From a virus, in the IMG/VR virus record IMGVR_UViG_3300017971_000342, positions 1-53,873 of that record: DNA of 53,873 nt; one strand, written 5' to 3'. Made by a program: the position numbers and the translations under genes. How positions within the stretch are numbered: the stretch's first letter is position 1; each line of letters begins with the position of its first letter. Positions 24,499 to 48,068 of the stretch are shown here, piece by piece. A model generated the notes under the pieces. It made no database searches. It had not been told where the DNA came from and worked only from the letters and a program-made list of their open reading frames with translations.

Positions 24499-24685
24499 TG
24501 AATGCCCTCCCAAGTGCTTTGATGGCGTCTTCCGCCCTCTGGGCTTGCGATCCCAGATAAAGGCCAGCAGGAGTATCGGCACCCACCATCTCGGCGAGCT
24601 CCCGATAATCGCGGGCGCGTTGTAACAGAATTGGTGCAGTAAGGCCCAGGAGGACACCATACTCACGCTCCAGTGGATCACTCAT
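24485..24685 (-). CDS. Hypothetical small helical protein
   Basis: 66 residues, coupled to the dUTPase stop (ATGA at 24,682-24,685). Helical throughout (EREYGVLLGLTAPILLQRARDYREL, SQAQRAEDAIKALGRAF). Unknown. Confidence 0.55.
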   Translation of the reverse strand: MSDPLEREYGVLLGLTAPILLQRARDYRELAEMVGADTPAGLYLGSQAQRAEDAIKALGRAFNARR

Positions 24686-25437
24686 AGGTCGTATCCCTTA
24701 GCCTCTTCGGTTGTGCAATCGTCGTCCTGACGTGCGTGGTTCTTAGCCAGTTTGGCCTCATACAAGGCGAAGACCTCGTTGGCACTCATGCCGAGGGCCT
24801 CGAAGATGCTGATGAGGAAGAACAGGCAGTCGACCGCCTCGACCTTGGCGTGGTCAAGGTTGTGGATCTCGTACTGCCGGCCCTCGCGTGCCTCCTTGTA
24901 CCAGTGCTTCCAATAGGTCATATCCCGTAGCTCGCACAGCTCACCGATCATGGCGGTGATGTAGGCGTTGAGCCACTTGCCACCCTCAAGCAGGTCAAGA
25001 TGCCCGTCGTCGAGGATCAACTCGTAGGCGTCAAAACCGGCCTTCTTGTTGAGCTCATACTGCATGCCGAAGAGATCTTGGAGCATGTCCTCGTTGCCAT
25101 CATAGGCCAGGTAGGCTGGACCAACTTCAGGCGCTCTGGTATGCTTCATGAGCCTTGGTGGGAAGACCGTTGTCTGCACCTGACCCTCAACGGGACCACG
25201 CATGACGTTGACACTACGGTCCCTCTTGTAGGAGCCGCAGTGCTGAGCGAACTCCCTGGTGCCACGGCAATCGCCGCAGTTCCCGCCATACTTCTCACAC
25301 TCGAGACAGGTCCGGTCGCCGCGTTCCCCGACATAGCGGAACAGGCTACAGTTCTGCACCGGCCTCTGGTCCATCGTTTTCTCCGGATGCTCACAGGTAT
25401 CGTAGCGCCGGCAAAGACTACACGGTTTGATACTCAT
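24682..25437 (-). CDS. Dimeric (all-alpha) dUTPase with Cys-rich N-terminal domain
   Basis: 251 residues. Residues 1-70 contain ten or more Cys (CSLCRRYDTC, CLECEKYGGNCGDC) and look like two metal knuckles. Residues about 110-240 match the dimeric MazG-like dUTPase: LFGMQYELNKKAGF, GELCELRDMTYWKHW, the metal-site helix KVEAVDCLFFLISIFEALGM, and YEAKLAKNHARQDD. The enzyme converts dUTP to dUMP, keeping uracil out of DNA and feeding a dUMP-using enzyme such as the TS-like product at 40,371. The zinc-like N-terminal fusion is unusual. Confidence 0.8.
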   Translation of the reverse strand: MSIKPCSLCRRYDTCEHPEKTMDQRPVQNCSLFRYVGERGDRTCLECEKYGGNCGDCRGTREFAQHCGSYKRDRSVNVMRGPVEGQVQTTVFPPRLMKHTRAPEVGPAYLAYDGNEDMLQDLFGMQYELNKKAGFDAYELILDDGHLDLLEGGKWLNAYITAMIGELCELRDMTYWKHWYKEAREGRQYEIHNLDHAKVEAVDCLFFLISIFEALGMSANEVFALYEAKLAKNHARQDDDCTTEEAKGYDL

Positions 25438-32788: not shown

Positions 32789-33128
32789 GGGCGATCAACC
32801 CCAGGTTTGCGTCGTAGCGAAGGTCACGCATGGCCTCGCCGCGAGGGTGATCGATGTCGACACAGGCGTCGACGTACTCGGACGCAATCATGCCGTCTCG
32901 GTAGAGAACGAATCGCGGAGCCGCCTTGCCACGTTTGACGTAGTCCGGCTTCAGCAGGAAGATGACCCTCTCCCCGGTCTCGGCGAGCACGGTGCGGACT
33001 GTCGCCAGCGCGTCATCCTTCGAACGGAATTTGGACACCTTCTTGATGTCCTCGTACCGGTCAGCACAGGCATTGTTGACAGCCGCCAACTGTTGTAGCG
33101 ACAAGTCACTCAGGTTCTTCTTTGCCAT
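32781..33128 (-). CDS. Conserved hypothetical protein
   Basis: 115 residues from ATG 33,128 (AGGAG further upstream). It overlaps the next gene by a few bases. Helical start SLQQLAAVNNACADRYEDIKK, then FRSKDDALATVRTVLAETGERV, FVLYRDGMIASEYVDAC and a short C-terminus. Unknown; adjacent to nuclease and dCMP deaminase. Confidence 0.6.
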   Translation of the reverse strand: MAKKNLSDLSLQQLAAVNNACADRYEDIKKVSKFRSKDDALATVRTVLAETGERVIFLLKPDYVKRGKAAPRFVLYRDGMIASEYVDACVDIDHPRGEAMRDLRYDANLGLIALV

Positions 33129-33603
33129 TTTGATACAGCTCCTCATTAGAGTACTCAGTTAATGGCACCCCAGCCTCCTCAAAGAGACTTCGGGACAATT
33201 CACAGGACGCTCCCCAACGAGAGAAGAAGTCCTTACTCGGTTCAATGCAAACGACGCTCCCTATACCGGCATCAAGTATTATACCGGTGCAGCGAGCACA
33301 CGGTAGATGCGTGATGTAGAGAGTCATGAAGGGCATCTCCTGAGCCCCAAACTTCCCAAGCGCCTGAAGAACTACGTTCGGCTCCGCATGGATGACGATC
33401 TCGTTCTTCAAGGGTCGATCATCAAGTCGATGATCATGTGTGATGCCGGTCGGGAACCGATTGGTGCCCCAGACAAGGGCGATACCAGCGTCATTTGCCA
33501 GCACCGCCCCAACCTTAGTGGTCGGGTCCGGAGACTTCGTGGACACGCCAAGAGCCAACCGGAGCAGCCGGATGTCTCGCTCCTTTATCTGTGCAGGTTC
33601 CAC
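33106..33603 (-). CDS. dCMP deaminase family protein
   Basis: 165 residues; start at 33,603 overlaps the previous gene. Cytidine-deaminase fold: ALGVSTKSPDPTTKVGAVLAND near the N-terminus, the zinc motif IHAEPNVVLQALGKFG (HAE), then THLPCARCTGIILDAGI (PCxxC). The zinc ligands His, Cys, Cys and the catalytic Glu are all present. It would convert dCMP to dUMP, the precursor for thymidylate-type enzymes. This fits the candidate dUMP hydroxymethylase encoded at 40,371. Confidence 0.88.
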   Translation of the reverse strand: MEPAQIKERDIRLLRLALGVSTKSPDPTTKVGAVLANDAGIALVWGTNRFPTGITHDHRLDDRPLKNEIVIHAEPNVVLQALGKFGAQEMPFMTLYITHLPCARCTGIILDAGIGSVVCIEPSKDFFSRWGASCELSRSLFEEAGVPLTEYSNEELYQNGKEEPE

Positions 33604-33968
33604 CGTACGATCTCCCGTTTCTTAGTCATGATGGCCAACGCGATAGCCTTGACCGTGAGAGCCCTGTCCTTACAAGTGATGTGAGGACTCCAATTCCGTG
33701 CCGATAGGGACTCAACCCACACCGGCAATTCGATGTTGGTGGGCCGCAGCACCCCCACGGTATGTCGCGGTCCGAACCAGTCCTCAACGTCGAGCTTCAT
33801 CTTGAACTGCCGTAGGTCAAACCCCGACAGCAGATCGTCAACGTTGACAATGAGTTGGCCGAGCTTTCTCGGCGTCAGGTTCGGATAGTAGTGCACCGTC
33901 ATGTGCACATCGGGACGCCGTTCGAACAGCAGCGCCGTGTAGTAGTTGTAGTTGACCACGCCTTTCAT
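33585..33968 (-). CDS. 2H phosphoesterase superfamily protein (LigT/CPDase-like)
   Basis: 127 residues, coupled to the kinase gene upstream (ATGA at 33,965-33,968). Two catalytic H-x-T motifs of the 2H superfamily: HMTVHY at about residues 22-27 and PHITC at about residue 95. Spacing and length fit the minimal family. Related enzymes hydrolyse 2',3'-cyclic or 1'',2''-cyclic phosphates. The overlap with a P-loop kinase suggests the two act together on an RNA, nucleotide or modified-base substrate. Confidence 0.75.
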   Translation of the reverse strand: MKGVVNYNYYTALLFERRPDVHMTVHYYPNLTPRKLGQLIVNVDDLLSGFDLRQFKMKLDVEDWFGPRHTVGVLRPTNIELPVWVESLSARNWSPHITCKDRALTVKAIALAIMTKKREIVRWNLHR

Positions 33969-34462
33969 CCCCTACTCCCATCGATAACACCGATACCGTC
34001 GACCTCCCACTCCTGAAGAGGCTGGTATATCCGTTGTTGGTGCTCTATTATAGACCAAGGGAAATCAGCCCGAGCAGCCCTGGCCCTCCACTCCTCTATA
34101 GGTGGATTCTCGAACGTGACCCAGGTCAACTCCGCGAGCCCTCCCTGGGCAATTTGCATCCACCTGAACCTATCCACCTCAGTAAGGTTCGTCTCCTCAA
34201 TGATGACGTTCTGACCACGATGAAGAAGGGCATCAACTGCGATCTGTAGGATGGAACCTACTCTCGGCTCAACATCGGCGTTGTACCGATCCACGTTGAG
34301 AGCTCGGCGGATGTCGTCACCGCCCAGGATGGTGGCGTCCAGCATCTTCCTGTGGTTATTGGCCCAGGAGGTCTTGCCGCACCGGGAACAGCCTACCGTC
34401 ACATGGACGGTAGGCTTCCGGTTTCCAGGGAGGCGATCTCTTGTCTTGAAGGGCTCATGCAT
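33965..34462 (-). CDS. P-loop nucleotide/polynucleotide kinase-like protein
   Basis: 165 residues from ATG 34,462. P-loop VTVGCSRCGKTSWANNH (about residues 20-35), a GGDDIRRAL segment typical of AAA_33/PNK-type kinases, IIEETNLTEVDRFRW (Walker-B and lid area) and an Arg-rich lid RARAARADFPW. No helical 5-hmdU-kinase domain is fused to it. Candidates are a polynucleotide kinase for repair with the 2H phosphoesterase, or a kinase for hydroxymethyluracil in DNA. The sequence alone does not decide. Confidence 0.75.
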   Translation of the reverse strand: MHEPFKTRDRLPGNRKPTVHVTVGCSRCGKTSWANNHRKMLDATILGGDDIRRALNVDRYNADVEPRVGSILQIAVDALLHRGQNVIIEETNLTEVDRFRWMQIAQGGLAELTWVTFENPPIEEWRARAARADFPWSIIEHQQRIYQPLQEWEVDGIGVIDGSRG

Positions 34463-34880
34463 TAGGGTCAAAGTCCCGGCGCTGGATCTTCATGAACTGT
34501 TCGATACGGGCGATACGGGCGACGGCCTGTTCGATCTCCGCCTTACTCACTGACGTAGGTGGTACGGCTGGAGTCTGAACCTTCCGGACGTGGCCGTCGG
34601 CCTCAGCGCCGAGCCACCTTTCGATCGCCATTGAGATTTGCACCCCGAAGACAGAGCCGATCATTGTGCCCGCACAGTACCAGGGAAAGAGGAATAGGCT
34701 CATGTCTGCTTTGACCAGGCTCCTGAAGGTGAGGAACCAGATCGAGTTGGAGAAGAAGGCCGCGATCAGGTGGAACCGCATGTTGTTACGGTTTCGCGAC
34801 CGGCTCACGATGCTGAACGAGATGTTCTGAATGAACGCCAGGATCAGCAGGGTCAGACTTGCTACGATGTACTCTGTCAT
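34455..34880 (-). CDS. Inner-membrane protein, three helices
   Basis: 141 residues, coupled to the upstream gene. Hydrophobic helices near ASLTLLILAFIQNISF, LIAAFFSNSIWFLTF and LFPWYCAGTMIGSVFGVQI, followed by a cytoplasmic Pro/Val linker and a charged helix EIEQAVARIARIEQFMK. Phages often encode such proteins for exclusion or envelope change. No family recognised. Confidence 0.65.
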   Translation of the reverse strand: MTEYIVASLTLLILAFIQNISFSIVSRSRNRNNMRFHLIAAFFSNSIWFLTFRSLVKADMSLFLFPWYCAGTMIGSVFGVQISMAIERWLGAEADGHVRKVQTPAVPPTSVSKAEIEQAVARIARIEQFMKIQRRDFDPNA

Positions 34881-36610: not shown

Positions 36611-38593
36611 CTACGCTGCCTCCTTAATTTCGCCCCATGAGGGACCGACTTCGACGTCAACCCTGAACGGGACTCTTCCTGGTATAGACTCACGCATTAG
36701 TTTAGCCAAATCTTCAGCCACGGTTGGGCTGCTGACTGTCAAGTCGAGCTCATCATGGACCTGCAACTGGATTCTGAATCCGGCGTCGTCGCCATCTACC
36801 ATACTCTTCTTCGTCTGGTCTCCGGAGGAGCCCTGGATCAACCGATTGAACGCCTTGTATGTCCAGTCGTAGTTGCCATTGGCGTCCTTTGGGAACCGGC
36901 ACTTCCGGCCTAGAATCGTGCGGATGAAGCCACGGCGCTTGGCTCGTCCTTCACAGAGCTTCGCCATCGCCTTGATGAACGGGAGCTTCTGGTTGAATAG
37001 GTCCAGCACTTGCTGGGCTTCCTGACCTGCGGCCTCATACTTACCGTTCCCGTCCCACTTCTCTTTCCACACCGTCGGCAGGCCCAGAGACCTGGCGAGC
37101 TTCGCTCCACCCATACCATAGCAGAGACCGAGGAAGATGATCTTGGCGTTGGTACGCTGCCACTTCTCCGGCATCTGGTCATCAGACAGGTCGTAGATGA
37201 TCCGAGACATCATCGTGTGGTTGTCAGTCAGCGGGTCGTTCCGATACTTCTCGGCTGCCATGACGGCCGACGGGTGGTTGAACCGTGGCAGTTTTGGCTC
37301 CAAGTGGCACGTCTCAGCGTAGTGAACGGACCACCGTGGCTCTTGCTGAGAGAAATCGTTGCAGGCCCAGATGCCGCCTTCGTCCGGGAGGTAGATCGAC
37401 CGCCAGCGCTTGGCGATGTAGAGGTCATGGTCGGGATCATCCCGGGAAGGTTGCTGCTGGAGGTTTGGGTCCGTGCAAGACAGACGGCCATACCGTGCAC
37501 CCTTGTCGTCGCCGGTGTTATCGTCGGTCTTCCGTAGCTGGTTGAATGTGCAGTGTATCCTGTCGCCAACCGCGTGCTCACGAACGCTGTTCACGAACGT
37601 GGTCCGCACCTTGTTGATCTTTCGTGCACGGTAGAGGGCTATGGACAGAGGCTTGTTTAGGGCGACGAGGAAGTCGTTGTCAACAGAGTCCTTCGGCTTC
37701 TCAGCTCTGGTCTTCGGTATGGTGCAGCCGAGATGGTGCCGGAGAAGAGGCGCTACGATGTTCGTGTTAGTGGCTTCGTTGAGTTCGAGCCGCGTGCCGG
37801 TGAGCATATGGATTGTGTCTAAGCACTTCGTCTCTTCCTCAATGGCCCACTTCTCAACCTGAGCCAACCGGTCAAAACTGATCCGGACACCGCGTCGCCG
37901 CATCTTCACCAGGACAGGTAGCAACCGGGACTCAAGGTCGTAGACCTCCCACAGCCCTTGGTCGTCGATCTCCCTCTCCTGGCGCCGGAGTAGTTGCAAC
38001 GGAAGCTCAACGTCCTGTATACCGTAGGCCGCGACATGCTGTGCCGGCATACGCCATATGTTTGCCTTGATGTCCTTCTTCGGGATACCCATCAAGGCCC
38101 CTACATCATAGAGGGCGTCTTCACTCTTACCGGGAACACCCCGTCGTTGAGCGATGTTCTCTAGGGAGTAGGAGATCTGAAGCTCGTCGAGTAGTGGCTC
38201 GGCAATCTGCACGTCACGGAACCACTTAGCATTTCGGAAGACAATCCCCATCTCAGCAAAGTAGTCAAGGTCGTATTGTATCCCAGCGCCGCATATGGTG
38301 CCGGTGAAGACCTTGGCCTGGTCACGGAGATACTGGATCGCGGCCTCTGGATTCGGGACGTTGCCACCGCCCTCGTGACGCAGCGGGACATAGAAGCTGG
38401 GTCCGTCCTCGATTGCAAAGGAGTAGCCACACACGTAGCCACCACGACGAACTCCTGGTCCGAGCTTCCGGATGTGGTCGTCCCGCGTTTCACAGTCGAT
38501 CGCCACCCTCTGGGCATTAGCCCAGGAGGGAAGCGAGCTGACCTTCGGCGGGGACCAATCCGCATCAGGTTGGAAGAGTGGCTGTTGAATCAT
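36611..38593 (-). CDS. DNA polymerase I-type (family A) with 3'-5' exonuclease
   Basis: 660 residues, coupled to the Nudix gene (ATGA). Exonuclease domain: VAIDCETRDDHI (Exo I), GAGIQYDLDYF (Exo II) and AAYGIQDVELPL (Exo III). Polymerase motif A is CNDFSQQEPRWSVHYAE, motif B RTNAKIIFLGLCYGMG and motif C QVHDELDL. Relative to E. coli R754/K758/F762 the motif B residues are Arg, Lys and Leu, so this is a Leu762-type polymerase. Length lacks the 5'-3' nuclease domain. It is the replicative polymerase of this phage. Confidence 0.94.
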   Translation of the reverse strand: MIQQPLFQPDADWSPPKVSSLPSWANAQRVAIDCETRDDHIRKLGPGVRRGGYVCGYSFAIEDGPSFYVPLRHEGGGNVPNPEAAIQYLRDQAKVFTGTICGAGIQYDLDYFAEMGIVFRNAKWFRDVQIAEPLLDELQISYSLENIAQRRGVPGKSEDALYDVGALMGIPKKDIKANIWRMPAQHVAAYGIQDVELPLQLLRRQEREIDDQGLWEVYDLESRLLPVLVKMRRRGVRISFDRLAQVEKWAIEEETKCLDTIHMLTGTRLELNEATNTNIVAPLLRHHLGCTIPKTRAEKPKDSVDNDFLVALNKPLSIALYRARKINKVRTTFVNSVREHAVGDRIHCTFNQLRKTDDNTGDDKGARYGRLSCTDPNLQQQPSRDDPDHDLYIAKRWRSIYLPDEGGIWACNDFSQQEPRWSVHYAETCHLEPKLPRFNHPSAVMAAEKYRNDPLTDNHTMMSRIIYDLSDDQMPEKWQRTNAKIIFLGLCYGMGGAKLARSLGLPTVWKEKWDGNGKYEAAGQEAQQVLDLFNQKLPFIKAMAKLCEGRAKRRGFIRTILGRKCRFPKDANGNYDWTYKAFNRLIQGSSGDQTKKSMVDGDDAGFRIQLQVHDELDLTVSSPTVAEDLAKLMRESIPGRVPFRVDVEVGPSWGEIKEAA

Positions 38594-39326: not shown

Positions 39327-39835
39327 ACGGCCTCCTCAACGTTGTCACGGTGCACAGAGTTGGCACCCTTTGACCCACGCGCTCTCATCTCGGCCTCAAC
39401 GAGGACCAGATACCGGCGGAGGTCGCGGATGTCATCAATCAGGCCTTCGGCACGGTCGTCGGCCGCGATCTTGGCGAAGATGTCGTATCGCTCGTCCAGG
39501 CGCGTGGCTTCGAGGATACCAAGGCACTCAGCCAAATCCTGCTCACCATACAGGCCCTTCTGGCCGAGAGCGCCCTTGATCTTGTCAGCCAAATAGTCCC
39601 ACGCCTTTCGCAGTGGAGTCTTCTTACCAAGAATCGTGACCGCAGTGTCCTCCTCAATCTTGTTCTCGATCCGGTCCCACTTGCGACACAGCATCATGTA
39701 GGCCCCGATGCCGCCACGGCGCTTCCAGCTGCCCTTGTACTGTGCCTCGGCCTTCATCAGTCCGGCCTTGTCCTCATCACACACCGCCTCGATGAATCCG
39801 AGATGGTGTGTGTCCATGTCGTGTCGTGAGCTCAT
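39323..39835 (-). CDS. Conserved all-alpha protein, possible nucleotide-modification-associated domain
   Basis: 170 residues from ATG 39,835, coupled to the HD gene. Characteristic stretch AQYKGSWKRRGGIGAYMMLCRKWDRIENKI, then RYDIFAKIAADDRAEGLIDDIRDLRRYLVLVEAEMRAR. The YxGSW...RKWDRIE pattern with a conserved acidic helix is found in many phage proteins and loosely resembles all-alpha domains near nucleotide-modification genes (Nmad1/MazG-like). I state that only as a possibility. It sits inside the nucleotide metabolism run. Confidence 0.6.
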   Translation of the reverse strand: MSSRHDMDTHHLGFIEAVCDEDKAGLMKAEAQYKGSWKRRGGIGAYMMLCRKWDRIENKIEEDTAVTILGKKTPLRKAWDYLADKIKGALGQKGLYGEQDLAECLGILEATRLDERYDIFAKIAADDRAEGLIDDIRDLRRYLVLVEAEMRARGSKGANSVHRDNVEEAV

Positions 39836-40371
39836 CTTGCCTCCAGAAAATCGCCTGTTCGCTGCCAGATGTACTGACGATAGAATGCCATCGCCCGTTC
39901 CGGCACCTGATGCTGGTTCTCGGCGAACCACCTGGCTATGTTACTCATCAGGGGCTCGACGTTACGGTTCCCCATGGCCCTCTGGTCATGACACCAGAGC
40001 CACAGATCGAGTAGGTCAGCGGCCTTCAGCCACATACGTTCGACCTCGTCCAGGCCGAGTTTACCCTCGAGCCCTACCAGTGACCGAATGCAGTCCTCAG
40101 CTTCCTCCAGACCGTCCCGAACCTTCTGGTGGGCCCACTTACAGAAGGCCGGCACATCGCCCGTCCAGCGCTCCTCCACATCGTGTGTCAGGGCTGCACG
40201 TAGGAGCCTCCCAGAGGCCTCGGGATAGAGTTGCGTGAGGAGTATGGTGACGCCCCACGAGTGCTGTGCCACGTCGTAGTGGCCATGGTGAGGCACGGTA
40301 TGGCACCGCGTCACGTTGCCTCCCTCACGCAGCCGCGTGATTCTCAGAATCGTGTCCGGATGTACGTCCAT
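39832..40371 (-). CDS. HD-domain hydrolase (YfbR-like deoxynucleotidase)
   Basis: About 179 residues. Start is ATG 40,371 or GTG 40,374; both fit coupling to the TS-like stop. HD motifs: HHGHYDVAQHSWGVTIL, then RAALTHDVEERWTGDVPA (HD) and a later Asp in KAADLLDLWLWCHDQ. This order is that of YfbR-like 5'-deoxynucleotidases, which dephosphorylate dNMPs. Its neighbour encodes the candidate dUMP hydroxymethylase; the HD enzyme may remove a normal nucleotide from the pool. Confidence 0.8.
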   Translation of the reverse strand: MDVHPDTILRITRLREGGNVTRCHTVPHHGHYDVAQHSWGVTILLTQLYPEASGRLLRAALTHDVEERWTGDVPAFCKWAHQKVRDGLEEAEDCIRSLVGLEGKLGLDEVERMWLKAADLLDLWLWCHDQRAMGNRNVEPLMSNIARWFAENQHQVPERAMAFYRQYIWQRTGDFLEAR

Positions 40372-41387
40372 CACCTATTCTCCCACTTGCGTTTTCTCTG
40401 GTTGATCCAGGCTCCAGCAGCCGCAGCCCAATCGCCGTCCTGGTCCATCTTCCCGAGTATCTCCTGGGCAGCGATGAACTTCTGCGGAGCCGTATTCTCC
40501 TTGTAGGCTGTGATGGCCTGCAACATAGGCAGAGCCACCTTCCTGATGAACGGGTCTGTCATGCCCAGGGCGGGACCGTCGCTGAGGAGCATCTGCATGT
40601 CCTGCTCAAACCGGTGGACGTCGCCGCGCGGGATGAGTGGGGTGGTCTTGACTACGCCACAGGCGTACGGACAGATGAACTGAGTGGACGGCCACGCCTT
40701 GTCCTGCATCTCGGTCATCAACTCCTGGTGGTTGTCCAGGTACAGATGCAGGTTGTTCGTCACCTGCCAGTATCGACCGACCTTGACGCCAATCTTCGCG
40801 GCCATGTACTCAAGGAGCACAGAGAAGTGGACCGCGTTGGCACCGAGGGCTCCCCAGACCGCATCGTTCGACCGGTTGGTAACCATCATGTCCAAAGCGC
40901 CGTCGTTGATCGAGAAGTAAGCCTGGGTGTTGCACGGTAGGTCTTTTGACTGGAGACCAAGGTCGTGATGGCCGTCCCACATTGCGAGAACCTGGCGCCG
41001 GCAGTCAGGGTTCTCCCTCAACGCTGCGGCGATCGTCTCGAGTTGGTCGCAGTTGAAGTGGCTCCGCCACCGATGGCCGTAGGCCCCGTTGAACGTGACG
41101 CCATCGTCGGAGAAATTCCGCATGGTCCCTACGATGGATGCAGGGAAGGCCACGTCGTTGCGGCCACACAACATCCACAGCGCCTCAAGTAGGTGGAAGA
41201 ACGGGTTGGCGTCCCGTTGCTCCCAGAACATGACGCGTTCGGTTGGCCTTGCGTAGACTATTGCCACAGGCTCCGGTGCCTTGAGGACTGGCCCATTCCG
41301 GCTCTCCCTTCGGATACCGTTGACGCTCAGAAACCTCATGACCTCAGGCAACGCCTGATGCACATTCCTGACTTGGATCACGTTCAC
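40371..41387 (-). CDS. Thymidylate synthase-like enzyme, candidate dUMP hydroxymethylase
   Basis: 338 residues from GTG 41,387 behind TTAGGAGATGGGCAC; an upstream ATG frame start is antisense to nothing useful and overlaps HNH. Signature: NVHQALPEVMRFLSVNG, GPVLKAPEPVAIVYARPTERV and RDANPFFHLLEALWMLCGRND. Catalytic Cys lies in DLPCNTQAYFSI, where ordinary TS has PCH. TNRSNDAVWGALGANAVHFS keeps the Asn that selects dUMP over dCMP. LHLYLDNHQEL follows. This variant form is seen in phages that replace thymine with 5-hydroxymethyluracil-derived bases. A true thymidylate synthase is the alternative. Confidence 0.82.
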   Translation of the reverse strand: MNVIQVRNVHQALPEVMRFLSVNGIRRESRNGPVLKAPEPVAIVYARPTERVMFWEQRDANPFFHLLEALWMLCGRNDVAFPASIVGTMRNFSDDGVTFNGAYGHRWRSHFNCDQLETIAAALRENPDCRRQVLAMWDGHHDLGLQSKDLPCNTQAYFSINDGALDMMVTNRSNDAVWGALGANAVHFSVLLEYMAAKIGVKVGRYWQVTNNLHLYLDNHQELMTEMQDKAWPSTQFICPYACGVVKTTPLIPRGDVHRFEQDMQMLLSDGPALGMTDPFIRKVALPMLQAITAYKENTAPQKFIAAQEILGKMDQDGDWAAAAGAWINQRKRKWENR

Positions 41388-41697
41388 GTGCCCATCTCCT
41401 AAGTGAGTTTTCGCTTTGCGATACTGCCTCAAGATGCTTCGGGTTGCAGCAGGCCCTGTTGCCACAAGTATGGTCAACCGTGAGGCCTTCCTCAATGTCG
41501 CCATTGAAGATCGCGTATGACAGCCGGTGGACCCAGTGGCTCTTACCATCATACCACATCTTGCCGTAGCCGTGACGGTCCTTGAACCGTTGCCAGACCC
41601 AGCAGTCGTCCACCTTCACCAGACCGGTCAACAGCCGCATAGCTGTCGACTTGTCAGTGATGGCCGGCAGCGCGTGCGATCTATTGATCTTTGGCAT
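41344..41697 (-). CDS. HNH endonuclease
   Basis: 117 residues, overlapping the glycosyltransferase by 17 bases and the TS-like gene by 44. Motif: WVHRLSYAIFNGDIEEG, TVDHTCGNRACCNPKHLEAVS, the HNH_3 pattern with zinc Cys. N-terminal part binds DNA (CWVWQRFKDRHGYGKMW). Freestanding HNH genes of this sort are homing endonucleases; it may spread the neighbouring modification genes. A nuclease tailored to unmodified DNA is also possible. Confidence 0.87.
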   Translation of the reverse strand: MPKINRSHALPAITDKSTAMRLLTGLVKVDDCWVWQRFKDRHGYGKMWYDGKSHWVHRLSYAIFNGDIEEGLTVDHTCGNRACCNPKHLEAVSQSENSLRRWARERDPSQECASGVA

Positions 41698-42493
41698 CTC
41701 TCAGGCTCGATTCGTAGGCTCTCTTCCACTGGATGGTGACCTCTTTGCGTTCCCCGAAGGCCCCACCAGATTTGTTCTTCTTCATCCGGAGGCGGACGTA
41801 AGGCGCGTGCAGTTCGGCGAGCTTCTCGGCCGCAGCCGCGTGAACCTCATGCGAACGGTAGTCGCTGCATCCTCCAGCCTCCTGCGTCTGCCGTTGTCCC
41901 TGGGCATACCTCACCGTGATGCAGTTGGGTAGGCCCTTGCGGAGAAGCTGGAGTAGGATGTCGAAGTCTTCCATCACCGCGACCCTGCCGTGCTCACAGC
42001 CCAGGAAGGCGTCGGTGTTGAAGGAGAGGACTCGGATCATCCGCGTGTTCTCGGTCGGGCAATCGGTCAGACGGTTTTGTCCCTCACGAGCCGAGATGCC
42101 GACAGCGCCGTAGCCATGGACCAGCAGCGACTCGACGTAGTTGATCATGTCGAGGGTTTCCTGCGGTTCCTGACTGAACAGGTGCCAGTCCTCAATCCCG
42201 TTGCGGCGGATGAGGAAGCCGAGATCGTCGTCCATCATGCAGAAGTGCTCGTCACCTTCGCTCTGTGCAACCTCACCGATCCACCGGCGGACGTTGGTGA
42301 TCCCGTCAACGGGACAGCCCAGAAGGCGGACTGAGGGAGGGCACTTCTCGGCGTAGGACTTGTACTGATCGATGGGGCAGACGACCACGACACGGTCGCG
42401 TAGCTCCGACACCCTCATCAGTTGGGCCAGCGTCCGGCCCTGCTCGGTGAAGCGATCCTGTCGGGACCGCGTTGGAATCCAGATCTTCATCAT
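41681..42493 (-). CDS. GT-A fold glycosyltransferase-like protein, candidate modified-base glycosyltransferase
   Basis: 270 residues, coupled to the upstream gene (ATGATG, stop TGA inside). Start: MMKIWIPTRSRQDRF, then VVVVCPIDQYKSYAE and LGCPVDGITNVRRWIGEVA. The metal/sugar motif is EHFCMMDDDLGF (DxD-type). Further RVAVMEDFDILLQLLRKG resembles the acceptor-side acidic motif of GT-A enzymes. It sits between the TS-like and aGPT-PPlase-like genes, so the acceptor may be 5-hydroxymethyluracil in DNA. Sugar donor unknown; no sugar-nucleotide genes are in the window. Confidence 0.72.
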   Translation of the reverse strand: MMKIWIPTRSRQDRFTEQGRTLAQLMRVSELRDRVVVVCPIDQYKSYAEKCPPSVRLLGCPVDGITNVRRWIGEVAQSEGDEHFCMMDDDLGFLIRRNGIEDWHLFSQEPQETLDMINYVESLLVHGYGAVGISAREGQNRLTDCPTENTRMIRVLSFNTDAFLGCEHGRVAVMEDFDILLQLLRKGLPNCITVRYAQGQRQTQEAGGCSDYRSHEVHAAAAEKLAELHAPYVRLRMKKNKSGGAFGERKEVTIQWKRAYESSLRDAKDQ

Positions 42494-43380
42494 TTCGGTC
42501 TCCCCTCGTAACGAACCTTCATCATTTGTCGTTTATGCTTCACCTTGACATACTTGGCGTATTCACAGAGCCAGTGCTCCACCTCACGCATCTCCCACTG
42601 CGGCCAGTCGTTCGGCCAGAGCTTGTTGTACCGGCTGAGGACCAGGAGCTTCTGCATTGCACGGATCGCTGCGGCTGCCGCCTTCTTCGGACCGTAGTTG
42701 ATAGCCGTGAGGTTCTTCGCGGTCAACCACGAGAGGCCACGGCAGCAGCCAGGTCCAGGGTTGGCCCACGTGTTAGTGTCCGGCGCGTTCTCGAGCAGAT
42801 AGGTGTGCCGCAGGTCGGACACTATTTCATAGGCCATGAACGGTCCGATGCACGGGAACCGTTTGAGTAGCTCCCACGTTTGCTCCAAGGTCAGGGGACC
42901 AGCCTGGTGGGTGGCCTTATGGGTGAGGACGTTGGCCGCATCCCGGTTGAAGGCGTTGACCATCTCGATACAGCCATCCAGTTTGTCCATGCCGTCCGGT
43001 GTTTTCACAACGTAGGCTGCCCCAACAACCGGCCTCACGCCTATCATAGCGAGTTTGGCTGTGGTAGCATCCCAACGCTCGAAGAGTCCGGCCTTCTTCA
43101 GTTTCTCAAGGGTCTCGATCCGGTTGAAGATGCGGCAGGCAGCCATGGCCGTTATCACCTTTGGGTTGTTGCGTAGTGGCTCCCGCACATTCTCGCGAAT
43201 CCAGACGGTGACCTTGTCGTCTTCACGGAATACGTTGCAGAACCGCCAGTCCTTGAACACTCTGTCGTCAGTCCAGGGTTTACTACGACCGGCTCTTCGT
43301 CGGCGGAGGATGTAGTATCGCTCCCTCGCCGTGGCGAAGTATTCCTCGATCTGATCGTCGTGTAGTTCGTACTCAAGCAT
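42490..43380 (-). CDS. Alpha-glutamyl/putrescinyl thymine pyrophosphorylase-like DNA base hypermodification protein
   Basis: 296 residues, first gene behind the promoter at 43,387. Signature N-terminal WRFCNVFREDDKVTVWIREN, NRIETLEKLKKAGLF, AAYVVKTPDGMDKLDG, then the helix-hairpin-helix-like LLKRFPCIGPFMAYEIVSDLRH, LLENAPDTNTWANPGPGCCRG. This is the DNA-glycosylase-like fold known as aGPT-PPlase or the helical domain of 5-hmdU DNA kinases, used in thymidine hypermodification. It has no P-loop domain. It probably binds modified DNA and displaces or transfers a pyrophosphoryl group. Confidence 0.78.
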   Translation of the reverse strand: MLEYELHDDQIEEYFATARERYYILRRRRAGRSKPWTDDRVFKDWRFCNVFREDDKVTVWIRENVREPLRNNPKVITAMAACRIFNRIETLEKLKKAGLFERWDATTAKLAMIGVRPVVGAAYVVKTPDGMDKLDGCIEMVNAFNRDAANVLTHKATHQAGPLTLEQTWELLKRFPCIGPFMAYEIVSDLRHTYLLENAPDTNTWANPGPGCCRGLSWLTAKNLTAINYGPKKAAAAAIRAMQKLLVLSRYNKLWPNDWPQWEMREVEHWLCEYAKYVKVKHKRQMMKVRYEGRPK

Positions 43381-43424: not shown

Positions 43425-45224
43425 CTACTCGCACTCTTTACGTCCTGTGGCCAGGTCGATTTTGCAGGCTGCACCGTCGTCTGTACTCTTGATGATCCCA
43501 GCCCTCTTACCACCTACCTGATAGGTGGTGATCCCCTTACAGCCGCGCTTCCAAGCCTCAACGTAGAGAGCCTTGAAGTCATCCCACGGCGTGTCTGTTG
43601 GCACGTTACACGTCTTACTCACGGCGCTGTCTACACAGCGAGTCGCAATCTCGAGCACATCAAGATGCTCCTCGATCGTAACGTCCTGGCAACGCTTACC
43701 CTCCACCCCGAACACGCGATAGCCGTAGTCGTCAAAGTCTGTCTCTACCTGGCCAGAAGGCATGTTCACCGTGCGTCGCTGGCTGTAGGAGAACACCGGC
43801 TCGATACCAGAGGAGACGTTGTCCGCACAGAGGGATATGGTTCCGGTCGGTGCGATGGAGGTCAGGTGGCTGTTGCGGATACCATACTTCTTGATCAACA
43901 GCCGTACCTCATCATCCAGCAACTGGACCAGCCCCTGCGACGACAGATACCGATCGTCGTACAGAGGGAACGCACCCTTCTCCTGGGCAAGGAGAGCCGA
44001 AGCACGATAGGTCTCGTTCGCTATGCACATCAGGATACGCATCTGCATGTGCTGAAACCGTTCCGATCCATACGGCATACCGAGAGCCTCAATAGCATTC
44101 GCCAGGCCGGTGACGCCGAGCCCCATCCGGCGCTTGCTCTTCGCCTCTCGCTCCTGTTCGTACAGTGGATAGGAGGATGCATCAATCACGTTGTCCATGG
44201 CTCGTACAACGTGCGGGATATCCTCAATAAGTTGGCCGAAGTCAAAGTATGGTAGGCTTGTGCCAAGGGGATTCATGACGATGTACCTGGTCAGGTTGAA
44301 ACTGCCCAGGAGACACGCACCGTAGGCCGGCAAGGGCTGTTCACCGCAAGGATTGGTCGCGATGATCTCCTCACAGTACCACAGGTTGTTGAGCCGGTTG
44401 ATTGTGTCGATGAAGATGACTCCCGGCTCGGCCCAATCCCAGGTCGACCGCATCAGCATGTCCCACAGGGCCCTCGCCTTGGTTTCACGGTATACCTTAC
44501 CGTTGAACCGAAGAGGGAAGTTGGCGTTGGCGATCAGCGCCTGCATGAACTCGTCTGTCACAGCAACTGAGATGTTGAAGCCTGTGAGTTTGAACACCGC
44601 CTGAAGAGCCTGGTACCAAGCGAGCCACTCCGCCGTCCCGGGAGTACACTTGGCCAGTTGCTCCATGATCGGACTTGCGGCCTTCGGTGGCTGCTTTGAC
44701 CGGATGAAGTCCTCGATATCAGGATGGTCAATACGCATGACGCCCATCTGTGCCCCACGGCGATGGCCGGAAGAGGCAATACACCTACAGATGGCATCGT
44801 AGATATCCATGAAGGAGATAGGCCCCGAGGACGTTGACATGAGCTTCTTGATGAGGTCGCCGCGCGGTCGCAGCGTTGAGAAGTCGTAGCCGATGCCTCC
44901 TCCCATTCGCATCGTAGCTGCGGCCTCAGTTGCGATGGCCATGATGGAGCCGTGACCTTCGACAAAGGAGTCTTCTATTCGGCCGGACACATAGCAGTTG
45001 TAGGCCGTGCAGTTCTTGGTGCTGCCAATAGCGTTTTGAATGCGACCACCAGGCATGAATCGCATATTGAGTAGGGCGTCGCGAAAAGCCCTGAAGTGTG
45101 CATCGTTGTCTTCCAAAGCACCGGCGATCCGGTTGGTCGACTCCTTGAAGGTCTCACCCTTACCGCGATACTTCTCGGCGTGGATTTCTTCAGAGAACGG
45201 TAGGGTTGGTCCGTATTCTGGCAT
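43425..45224 (-). CDS. Ribonucleotide reductase, class II (adenosylcobalamin-dependent)
   Basis: 599 residues from ATG 45,224 behind AGGAGGAGTC; longer frame rejected. Barrel motifs: NCYVSGRIEDSF, MRMGGGIGYDFSTLRPRG, GHRRGAQMGVMRIDHPDIEDF, the finger-loop NPCGEQPLPAYGAC (catalytic Cys, Asn, Glu) and SIAPTGTISL. The C-terminal pair CKID..KECE supplies the redox Cys pair. Shape is that of NrdJ-type B12-dependent enzymes without an NrdB subunit. Produces deoxynucleotides for phage DNA synthesis without needing oxygen. Confidence 0.9.
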   Translation of the reverse strand: MPEYGPTLPFSEEIHAEKYRGKGETFKESTNRIAGALEDNDAHFRAFRDALLNMRFMPGGRIQNAIGSTKNCTAYNCYVSGRIEDSFVEGHGSIMAIATEAAATMRMGGGIGYDFSTLRPRGDLIKKLMSTSSGPISFMDIYDAICRCIASSGHRRGAQMGVMRIDHPDIEDFIRSKQPPKAASPIMEQLAKCTPGTAEWLAWYQALQAVFKLTGFNISVAVTDEFMQALIANANFPLRFNGKVYRETKARALWDMLMRSTWDWAEPGVIFIDTINRLNNLWYCEEIIATNPCGEQPLPAYGACLLGSFNLTRYIVMNPLGTSLPYFDFGQLIEDIPHVVRAMDNVIDASSYPLYEQEREAKSKRRMGLGVTGLANAIEALGMPYGSERFQHMQMRILMCIANETYRASALLAQEKGAFPLYDDRYLSSQGLVQLLDDEVRLLIKKYGIRNSHLTSIAPTGTISLCADNVSSGIEPVFSYSQRRTVNMPSGQVETDFDDYGYRVFGVEGKRCQDVTIEEHLDVLEIATRCVDSAVSKTCNVPTDTPWDDFKALYVEAWKRGCKGITTYQVGGKRAGIIKSTDDGAACKIDLATGRKECE

Positions 45225-45232
45225 GACTCCTC

Positions 45233-46468
45233 CTATTGCTGACAGATTGTTACTTGTTCCGATGCCCTCGTGATAGCAGTATAGAGCCAGCGCTTCGCGT
45301 CGCCACGGAAAACCCACCCCTCGTTGAATATAAAGACGTTCGGCCACTGCGATCCCTGGGCCTTATGCGTCGTGAGGGCATAGCCGTAGTCGAAGCACTG
45401 GGCTTCACCTATCTCCCAGTGGCGGAGCTCTTCTTCCCGCCCCTCGAAGTAATGTATGTGGGCCTCTACGTCGAGCGTTACATCGTCCTCCTCGTCGTGA
45501 ACTACCAGCCCGATCCTATCGTACCCATCCACGTACGATGCGTCTCTACAGGTCCACACGGTCCCGTTCAAGAGACCAACCTCGTGATCGTTACGGAGGC
45601 ACACGAGCCGATCATCAACCACTGGAGCAGGCTCAGCACCCCTGCCCAGAAGAGTCCGCATCTTGTGGTTGACGAACCGTCTGGTCTTGTTGCGACCGAC
45701 GAGTATCTGGTCCGCAGATCGCACTATCTCAGGGTCAGGCTTGCCGGACATGACCAGCGACTCCCCGTATCTCCCATCGATGAGGCTCTCACCGCGACGA
45801 ACTTTGGTCGCCAGATCGATGATCGGGTTGCCCCGCGCTTGCCGGTGGATTTCAGTGAGCATGATGTCCGGCTTCTTACCGGTGAAGAAGCCACCGCCCT
45901 TTACCGGCGGAAGCTGAGCCGGATCGCCGAGGACCAGCACCGGTGTGTCGAAGGAGAGTAGGTCTTGCCCCATACGGTCGTCAACCATGGAGCATTCATC
46001 GATGATGACAAGATCAGCGTCCTTCACGGCCGACTCTAGATTCAGGGAGAATGCCGGACGTTTGAGCTTTGCCTCTTCGATCTCCATCTCGTGCTTGATC
46101 AACTTGATTTCCCGATGGGCATCAATCTGTTCCTGAGTTGCCCCTTCGCTCTTCAGTTCATGAGCCACTTCCAACAAGTCTCGCTGTAGCTGGTGAAGCC
46201 TCTCCTTTGACCGCGATGAGGGGACGTAGATCATCTGGTGAATTGTCATCGCTCCAGGGCAGCCACGCTTTCGCATGACGGATGCCGCCTTGCCGGTGTA
46301 GGCTCCGAAGAGAACGCGACTGACTCCCTCGGCCAGGTACATGGCGAGAGTAGTCTTACCTGTACCAGCATAGCCAAACAACCGAAAGACCTGCTGGTCT
46401 TTGGTGTTCCTCAACCACCGATTTACCGCGTCGATCGCTTCCTGTTGTTGTCGGCCCCAGTTCATCAT
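45233..46468 (-). CDS. Dda/RecD-like superfamily 1 helicase
   Basis: 411 residues, coupled to the micro-ORF upstream. Walker A GYAGTGKTTLAMYLAEG (about residue 32), motif Ia GAYTGKAASVMRKRG, Walker B DADLVIIDECSMVDDRM, motif III VLGDPAQLPPVKGGGF, and motifs V-VI DYGYALTTHKAQGSQW, YTAITRASEQV. A charged insert at about 95-145 resembles the Dda hook/tower. Helps replication start and recombination, moving 5'-3' in relatives. Confidence 0.9.
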   Translation of the reverse strand: MMNWGRQQQEAIDAVNRWLRNTKDQQVFRLFGYAGTGKTTLAMYLAEGVSRVLFGAYTGKAASVMRKRGCPGAMTIHQMIYVPSSRSKERLHQLQRDLLEVAHELKSEGATQEQIDAHREIKLIKHEMEIEEAKLKRPAFSLNLESAVKDADLVIIDECSMVDDRMGQDLLSFDTPVLVLGDPAQLPPVKGGGFFTGKKPDIMLTEIHRQARGNPIIDLATKVRRGESLIDGRYGESLVMSGKPDPEIVRSADQILVGRNKTRRFVNHKMRTLLGRGAEPAPVVDDRLVCLRNDHEVGLLNGTVWTCRDASYVDGYDRIGLVVHDEEDDVTLDVEAHIHYFEGREEELRHWEIGEAQCFDYGYALTTHKAQGSQWPNVFIFNEGWVFRGDAKRWLYTAITRASEQVTICQQ

Positions 46469-46610: not shown

Positions 46611-47438
46611 CTAGAAGACTTCGTCGCCGTCGCCTTCGGAACCGGTCACGCCGGTCTGCGAGGCGTGGTCGGCCTTGGCCAAGCCACCATGGACGGCTTC
46701 GACGAGGGCCTTACCCTCAACGAGCAGGCCTTCGAACGGAGTGCCGGGAAGGTTGACACTCTCCATGATCGACGTGCCGACGGCAGGCGTGATCTGGAAA
46801 TTCTTGAACGGCTGACCCTTCTTGTTCTTGTCGGGACAGGAAGTGATGCCGAGCCGGAAGGCATACATCGGAGGCTTTGCCTTGATCGTCTTGAGCGTGG
46901 TCATCAGGGCCTTGTACTTCTTGATCTTCGTCGACGTGAAAGCGATCACGATCGGCGTCGAAGACTCGGTCGCGTCAGCCGAATCGAGCAGCAGGCCGTA
47001 GATGTAGAAGGTTTCCTGAAGCTCGTGACCTTCGTCGGTCTTGAGGTCGTTGAACTTCGATGCCGCAGCCTTGGAAGCCTTGACGAACTCGGACGACGGC
47101 GCGTGCACACCGACGAACCCACCGCCATCGTCGCGGGGAATCCACTCGACGTAGACATGCTCGGTGGTACACGGCACAAAGTAGGCCGTCTCAGGAAGGA
47201 GTTCCCGAGTCACCGTATTGAAGAGACTTCCCTCCTTGGCGCCGATGATCTGCTTGGGACCGCCCTCCTCCTTCTCCGGGCTCAGCGCCTGCACCAGGCC
47301 CAGGAATGGGATGGCGATGTCGTCGGTGGTCTGGTTCTCGAAGCCAACACCGGCATGCTCACCGAAGTCAGCTTTCGCCAATGCGCTGGCGGCCTCGGCC
47401 TGTTTGGCCAACGCTGTTTGTTTCTTGTCTTCTGCCAT
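46611..47438 (-). CDS. Probable ssDNA-binding/replication protein
   Basis: 275 residues, start 47,438 behind TTAGGAGAACACA. Conserved stretch GFENQTTDDIAIPFLGLVQAL, EGSLFNTVTRELL, YFVPCTTEHVYVEWIPRDDGGGFVG and PIVIAFTSTKIKKYKALMTTLK. C-terminus is acidic and ends DGDEVF, an acidic tail closing with an aromatic residue, as in T7 gp2.5-type SSBs. An efficient terminator follows the gene, as expected for a highly expressed DNA-binding protein. The SSB role is inferred from context and tail. Confidence 0.6.
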   Translation of the reverse strand: MAEDKKQTALAKQAEAASALAKADFGEHAGVGFENQTTDDIAIPFLGLVQALSPEKEEGGPKQIIGAKEGSLFNTVTRELLPETAYFVPCTTEHVYVEWIPRDDGGGFVGVHAPSSEFVKASKAAASKFNDLKTDEGHELQETFYIYGLLLDSADATESSTPIVIAFTSTKIKKYKALMTTLKTIKAKPPMYAFRLGITSCPDKNKKGQPFKNFQITPAVGTSIMESVNLPGTPFEGLLVEGKALVEAVHGGLAKADHASQTGVTGSEGDGDEVF

Positions 47439-47507
47439 TGTGTGTTCTCCTAAAGTGCGGCGGACCCTTTTACGTGCTCCGGCGCGGCTGCACGGCTCAC
47501 ATGAGCA

Positions 47508-48068
47508 TTAGTCTTTCGCGAGGCTGATCTTTGCAAACTTCTGCTCGAACACCCCGAACGTGTCTTGTGGTATGTCGCTGCCGGCCTCAAGTTGAGCCTT
47601 GACGAAGGCCGTCAGCGATGCCGCCTCAACCTTCATCTCCTGCTTTACGGCGACGCCGACTCCGCGCTCCCTCAGTTCCTTCAAGAGCTTCTTCGCTGCC
47701 TCTTCCTGACCAGTGTTGAAGGCCACCTGCACCGTTCGCTTGATAAGACCACCATGGCCGTTGTCGGTGAGCCACTTGAACGCCTTGGCCTTGCGGTCTC
47801 CGATGCTGGCACGAATCTTCTTCACGACTTCGACCTTTAGCCCTGCCGTAGACGTGAACTCCTCAAGCCCCAGGCTGACCATGAACTCGGGAAGATCGTA
47901 CTCCTCCAATTGCCTCTTCGCGGCCTGAGCTTTCTTCAGCGTCTCTTCGGCCTTCTCTACCTCTTCCTCAGCCTTGATGAGTTGCTGAATCAGCGTATCC
48001 AGCTTGGCGAACGCTTCTTCGCCTGGCTTGTTCTCCACCCTGAAATCGGCGAATGGGTCTTTTGCCAT
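47508..48068 (-). CDS. Conserved phage protein with coiled coil, recombination/SSB context
   Basis: 186 residues, start 48,068 behind AAAGGGGTGACGAG. Residues 15-55 are a coiled coil (DTLIQQLIKAEEEVEKAEETLKK). The rest contains EYDLPEFMVSLGLEEFTSTAG, the basic strand LKVEVVKKIRASIGDRK, FKWLTDNGHGGLIKRTVQVAF and a final helix. The LPEFMxxLGLEEF and DxGHGGLIK patterns are conserved in phage proteins located beside SSB and helicase genes. Biochemical role unknown. Confidence 0.62.
   Translation of the reverse strand: MAKDPFADFRVENKPGEEAFAKLDTLIQQLIKAEEEVEKAEETLKKAQAAKRQLEEYDLPEFMVSLGLEEFTSTAGLKVEVVKKIRASIGDRKAKAFKWLTDNGHGGLIKRTVQVAFNTGQEEAAKKLLKELRERGVGVAVKQEMKVEAASLTAFVKAQLEAGSDIPQDTFGVFEQKFAKISLAKD

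Follow-up and report, generated by a model that had tools for sequence, protein, structure and literature searches.

The best-described relatives of the system considered here are the thymidine-hypermodification operons of the Mesyanzhinovviridae phages M6, YuA and PaMx11, which yield 5-NedU and related bases. M6 DNA carries 5-NedU, a base derived from 5-hydroxymethyldeoxyuridine (5-hmdU), and the bases of both M6 and ViI arise from 5-hmdU by way of a 5-hmdU DNA kinase (PMC6449724). In YuA and M6 the neighbourhood comprises an amino acid:DNA transferase (ADDT), a pyridoxal phosphate (PLP) enzyme, a radical S-adenosylmethionine (radical-SAM) enzyme, the P-loop 5-hmdU kinase, a helical protein of the HMUDK_hel family, a thymidylate synthase (TS) homologue, an HD nucleotidase and polA. 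Here we analyse the bacteriophage record IMGVR_UViG_3300017971_000342 over its whole length of 53,873 nt (the window), in which a minus-strand operon at 40,371-43,380 encodes, in order of transcription, HMUDK_hel, a glycosyltransferase of the TAGT family, an HNH endonuclease and a TS homologue, followed by an HD nucleotidase. The window shares the TS family and the gene order of the M6/YuA/PaMx11 group and keeps its helicase, ribonucleotide reductase, HMUDK_hel, TS, HD, polA and dCMP deaminase genes; it differs in having no kinase, ADDT, PLP/FAD, radical-SAM or acetyltransferase gene, and TAGT stands beside HMUDK_hel instead. From sequence comparison and structural models we consider it probable that this is an M6/YuA-type hypermodification operon in which a glycosyltransferase replaces the phosphorylation and amino-acid branch. 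Glycosylation is favoured because an M6-type TS with a uracil-type Asn, a GT-A family known to act on phage DNA, a conserved linkage of the genes and a strict exclusion of kinase and ADDT all occur together.

The TS homologue belongs to PF00303 (E 1.1e-19), carries the PCN motif reported in the initial annotation, and is approximately 52% identical to YuA gp17 and 50% identical to PaMx11 gp51. The listed open reading frame of 393 aa overlaps the HNH gene; because an internal GTG at 41,387 is preceded by the Shine-Dalgarno sequence TTAGGAG and coincides with the start of the M6/YuA TS homologues, the true start is probably this GTG, giving a protein of 338 aa. The uracil-type Asn of the window TS aligns opposite the Asp of the CMP hydroxymethylase MilA and is kept in 87/87 TS proteins from TAGT contexts and 54/54 from kinase contexts, while the equivalent Asp of T4 gp42 falls one alignment column away. 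The window TS thus has Asn in place of the dCMP hydroxymethylase-type Asp that marks cytosine glucosylation in T-even phages, and we rejected a cytosine pathway on this ground.

The GT-A-like protein with a DDD motif that had been proposed from the sequence is borne out by profile and structure alike. It scores 73.2 bits against PF20691 (Pfam gathering cut-off 27.5) with the whole profile covered (1-205/205), and its DxD-type motif, DDD at residues 88-90, is invariant in a 41-row alignment in which an E/D motif is conserved as well. The AlphaFold2 model (pLDDT 93.4) adopts a GT-A fold and matches the GT-A enzymes PcManGT and TarP in the PDB with E ~1e-5; PDB sequence searches with TAGT and with HMUDK_hel gave nothing useful. 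Family (PF20691/phrog_842) and fold are those of the T2/T6 beta-glucosyl-5-hydroxymethylcytosine-alpha-glucosyltransferase, also called TAGT; that enzyme works on 5-hydroxymethylcytosine (hmC) already glucosylated by an alpha-glucosyltransferase, and the TS relative there is a dCMP hydroxymethylase. The addition of a second sugar onto glucosyl-hmC by T6 TAGT (PMC13216743) lends some weight to the alternative that the window enzyme extends another base-linked group rather than acting on 5-hmdU directly, or glycosylates hmC as in T-even phages. We regard this as unlikely, given the uracil-type Asn where a CMP hydroxymethylase has Asp and the lack of any T4-type alpha- or beta-glucosyltransferase in the window or the related records searched, where the positive control (T4) covers the beta-enzyme only. 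No TET/JBP domain, the association for which the family is named, turned up among the window proteins scanned, although no search was aimed at TET/JBP. Because no sugar-nucleotide gene was seen among the same proteins, the sugar donor presumably comes from the host.

The initial annotation saw no PLP, radical-SAM or amino-acid transferase gene, and our profile searches agree: PALP, radical-SAM and ADDT profiles have no match in the window, nor does ADDT match in any TAGT record. Neither the kinase profile nor PF18748 detected a P-loop 5-hmdU DNA kinase in the window. The closest relative found is a 59-kb contig with the same gene set, and we rejected loss of the kinase at a fragment edge, since the kinase is likewise missing from other records and from G001, a 59-kb relative that has no ADDT either. 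It is improbable, in our estimate, that the kinase branch still runs through a divergent enzyme while TAGT glycosylates another target, for instance the cell surface. The obvious candidate is the polynucleotide kinase (PNK)-like product of 33,965-34,471, a P-loop protein matching AAA_33 (E 3.9e-14), and some true kinase-branch proteins do score higher with AAA_33 than with PF18748. This protein, however, is not meaningfully similar to the kinase of YuA or of PaMx11, is not detected by the kinase profile, resembles polynucleotide kinases, lies 6 kb beyond TS and is found only in phages of the window's sub-lineage, and ADDT is absent as well; we therefore rejected it as the missing 5-hmdU DNA kinase. 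It adjoins a 141-aa protein (33965-34880, minus strand), the two being fused in a relative (L008:17378-18286), and is possibly a 5-hmdUMP kinase or an end-repair enzyme. The genuine 5-hmdU P-loop kinases of YuA, M6 and PaMx11 (NC_010116 gp13, NC_007809 gp054 and NC_028770 gp49) are annotated as 'terminase small subunit'.

The fourth protein had been described as a DNA-glycosylase-like relative of aGPT-PPlase. The family label holds, as PF18723 is HMUDK_hel in current Pfam and relatives are annotated 'aGPT-PPlase clade 1' or '5-hmdU DNA kinase helical domain'; HMUDK_hel is neither a kinase nor a shown pyrophosphorylase. A Walker A motif is missing from the window protein and occurs in 0/112 rows of the family, compared with 60/60 kinase rows, and the AlphaFold2 model (pLDDT 96) is all-helical; we rejected the idea that HMUDK_hel is itself the kinase on account of this fold and the missing P-loop. 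In the PDB it comes closest in structure to DNA glycosylases and to the PaMx11 5-PmdU glycinyltransferase, in every case weakly (E 0.57-1.4), and comparison with the ADDT profile likewise gave only a weak match. At 17 positions the residue is kept in at least 95% of proteins in TAGT and kinase contexts alike, and in all of those in the methyltransferase context; no alignment column cleanly divides TAGT from kinase contexts.

A six-sequence TAGT alignment used to search viral contigs returned 80 loci, and a search of bacterial genomes one. Scoring 102 TAGT loci (among them a few pairs that overlap on one contig) with our own profiles placed HMUDK_hel in 95, within 3 kb in 89. Five of the seven loci without it end just upstream; the others are phage DLP6, which has T4-like replication genes, and MW202897. 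Distances among TAGT, HMUDK_hel and TS proteins co-vary (r 0.82-0.89). An independent search with HMUDK_hel, restricted to loci flanked on both sides by 5 kb or more, found TAGT at 13, kinase at 28, neither at 10 and both at none. The same exclusion holds across 40 whole records with HMUDK_hel: TAGT is present in 24, the 5-hmdU DNA kinase in 12 and the two together in 0 (Fisher p=3.3e-7). ADDT is present in 11 of the 40, always together with the kinase, and in the four records that lack both TAGT and kinase the same slot is filled by a class-I methyltransferase or by an FkbM methyltransferase alongside a GT-B-like enzyme. Among cultured phages, a Luna18-type TAGT relative is found in 20 records of Microbacterium phages and Brevibacterium phage LuckyBarnes has the order TS-TAGT-TAGT-HMUDK_hel; profile searches found kinase and ADDT in neither Luna18 nor LuckyBarnes. 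The HMUDK_hel-TAGT-TS module is common to many uncultured phages.

We built a quick tree of the HMUDK_hel family from 112 proteins, in which some branches are long, those of LuckyBarnes and Luna18 among them. The TAGT label requires 10 changes on it, with well-supported branches forcing at least six, and the window clade sits within the kinase-context rows; partner exchange therefore occurred more than once. Because the partner changed repeatedly while the 17 residues stayed fixed, we infer that HMUDK_hel keeps one function with all its partners, plausibly the binding and flipping of 5-hmdU. Whether HMUDK_hel is a general platform presenting 5-hydroxymethyluracil in phage DNA modification, with an exchangeable transferase (kinase plus amino-acid or inositol transferases, TAGT, GT-B glycosyltransferases or methyltransferases), each set giving a different thymine and the window phage a base-J-like glycosylated one, we judge to be evenly balanced.

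Several neighbouring arrangements were observed at loci related to the window. The nearest kinase-context relatives of the window HMUDK_hel (L095, L096 and L097) have an operon of HMUDK_hel, myo-inositol-1-phosphate synthase (PF01658, E 4.9e-33), ADDT-like transferase (E 1.5e-5), dual-specificity phosphatase (E 3.7e-7), P-loop kinase and TS (L096:9989-15273), which suggests an inositol-modified thymidine. In nine loci (L148, L149, L150, L155, L160, L162, L165, L166 and L168) neither kinase nor TAGT is present, and HMUDK_hel and TS are immediately preceded by a class-I SAM methyltransferase of ~280 aa; it is Methyltransf_23 in the two members scanned, and an O-methylated hydroxymethyluracil is a possible product. 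HMUDK_hel occurs with an FkbM methyltransferase, a GT-B-like enzyme and TS in L158:10822-13102, L164 and L125, and FkbM genes also adjoin TAGT in L018, L053, L089 and L109, possibly pointing to a methylated sugar on the base.

In the pathway we propose, dCMP deaminase and the dUTPase_2-like enzyme would supply dUMP, which the TS homologue would convert to 5-hydroxymethyl-dUMP. This would be phosphorylated, with the host TMK or the PNK-like protein as candidate 5-hmdUMP kinases, and built into DNA by the phage polymerase during replication, most likely replacing thymine there. HMUDK_hel, as a DNA-glycosylase-like helical protein, would then bind 5-hmdU in DNA and probably flip the base out, and TAGT would glycosylate the hydroxymethyl oxygen with a host nucleotide-sugar as donor; the resulting base-J-like glycosyl-5-hydroxymethyluracil may protect the DNA from restriction or DNA glycosylases. 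The comparative evidence favours the order of events proposed in the initial annotation, with hydroxymethylation of dUMP and incorporation preceding a glycosylation that takes the place of phosphorylation and amination; the glycosylated base itself is a prediction. That the phage makes 5-hmdU only, or that the operon has decayed and TAGT and HMUDK_hel leave the base unmodified, has a precedent in phages such as SPO1 and SP8, which end at 5-hmdU. We think this very unlikely, since the catalytic motifs are intact and conserved across many loci, the reading frames are open with translational overlap (the HMUDK_hel stop and the TAGT start overlap in ATGA), and the three proteins vary together.

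Some observations weigh against the glycosylation pathway. The only characterised TAGT role that we found is the addition of a second glucose onto glucosyl-hmC in T2/T6 (PMC13216743), and the direct acceptor could differ. HMUDK_hel resembles DNA glycosylases weakly (Foldseek E 0.57) and has no profile match to EndoIII. The complete 40-kb phage genome MW202897 (L003) carries TAGT-TS-HD with no HMUDK_hel in the whole record, so HMUDK_hel is not strictly needed. The loci were gathered by similarity to window proteins, many records are incomplete, and kinase absence rests on profile searches. As an observation in its own right, MW202897 provides a natural case in which to see whether TAGT works in the absence of HMUDK_hel.

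The four operon genes lie on the minus strand where they had first been placed (Table 1). The HNH nuclease was correctly identified, but we rejected it as a pathway member, since most related HMUDK_hel-TAGT-TS operons lack the gene. The supply enzymes previously listed are likewise present, including a Nudix protein at 38,590 in addition to those tabulated. Elsewhere in the window (46611-48068, minus strand) two proteins fall into the Pam3 gp34 (PF23977) and gp33 (PF23984) phage families, which may point to a connection with the Pam3-like group, and in L096:7363-9996 (plus strand) the ribonucleotide reductase frame is interrupted in frame by an apparent intein with a homing endonuclease, read by eye.

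Table 1. Features of the window discussed in the text
Feature	Coordinates	Strand	Evidence	Role or context
HMUDK_hel protein, 296 aa	42490..43380	-	PF18723 E 2.4e-38	proposed 5-hmdU-DNA recognition/base-flipping partner
TAGT glycosyltransferase, 270 aa, GT-A fold	41681..42493	-	PF20691 E 3.7e-20, phrog_842	proposed sugar transfer onto 5-hmdU in DNA
HNH endonuclease	41344..41697	-	HNH_3 E 1.1e-14	inserted passenger between TAGT and TS
TS homologue, 338 aa	40371..41387 (longest ORF to 41552)	-	phrog_5131 E 2.8e-125	predicted dUMP hydroxymethylase
HD 5'-deoxynucleotidase (YfbR-like)	39832..40374	-	PF12917 E 9.1e-10	probable nucleotide-pool enzyme; co-located in many relatives
dCMP deaminase	33106..33603	-	PF00383 E 7.8e-15	dUMP supply; homologue near polA in PaMx11/YuA
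dUTPase_2/MazG-like	24682..25437	-	PF08761 E 7.8e-9	probable dUMP supply
DNA polymerase A	36611..38593	-	PF00476 E 3e-42; 53% identical to PaMx11 polymerase	putative 5-hmdUTP incorporation
Ribonucleotide reductase	43425..45347	-	PF02867 E 2e-101; 62% identical to YuA gp07	upstream; order as in YuA

Base J of kinetoplastids belongs to the product class predicted for the window, a glycosylated 5-hydroxymethyluracil; its hydroxylation takes place on DNA through JBP1/2 rather than by a dUMP hydroxymethylase, and its glycosyltransferase is not a TAGT. Bacillus phage SP-15 contains glycosylated dihydroxypentyluracil (PMC5977210), a sugar-bearing thymidine derivative like the predicted base that differs in its dihydroxypentyluracil and in the gene cluster. 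Yersinia phage YerA41 carries a ~1-kDa thymidine substituent of unknown structure, likely sugar-bearing as we predict for the window (PMC9023294). Glucosylated 5-hmdU was stated to be unreported in phage genomes as of 2019 (PMC6449724), and the literature we searched contained no report of glycosylated hydroxymethyluracil in phages; a later report is possible. The gene combination itself is not unique to the window phage: TS, aG/PT-PPlase1, a nucleotidase and a putative beta-glucosyl-HMC-alpha-glucosyltransferase, the same combination in different hosts and genomes, are co-located in HTVC023P-type pelagiphages, and the passages of that account available to us propose no glycosylated product, mechanism or partner exchange (PMC9599517).

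Solitary TAGTs, found without an alpha- or beta-glucosyltransferase in 288 of 753 phage genomes, were described in a 2026 T4 study as having a function yet to be defined (PMC13216743). The operon presented here offers a concrete answer for these enzymes and an enzymatic route by which a base-J-like nucleotide may be made in bacteria. It also suggests that the conserved helical protein, whose present name makes it part of a kinase, is a reusable 5-hmdU-binding module with a swapped partner enzyme, and cultured phages of Microbacterium and Brevibacterium that carry related genes allow a direct test of the prediction.

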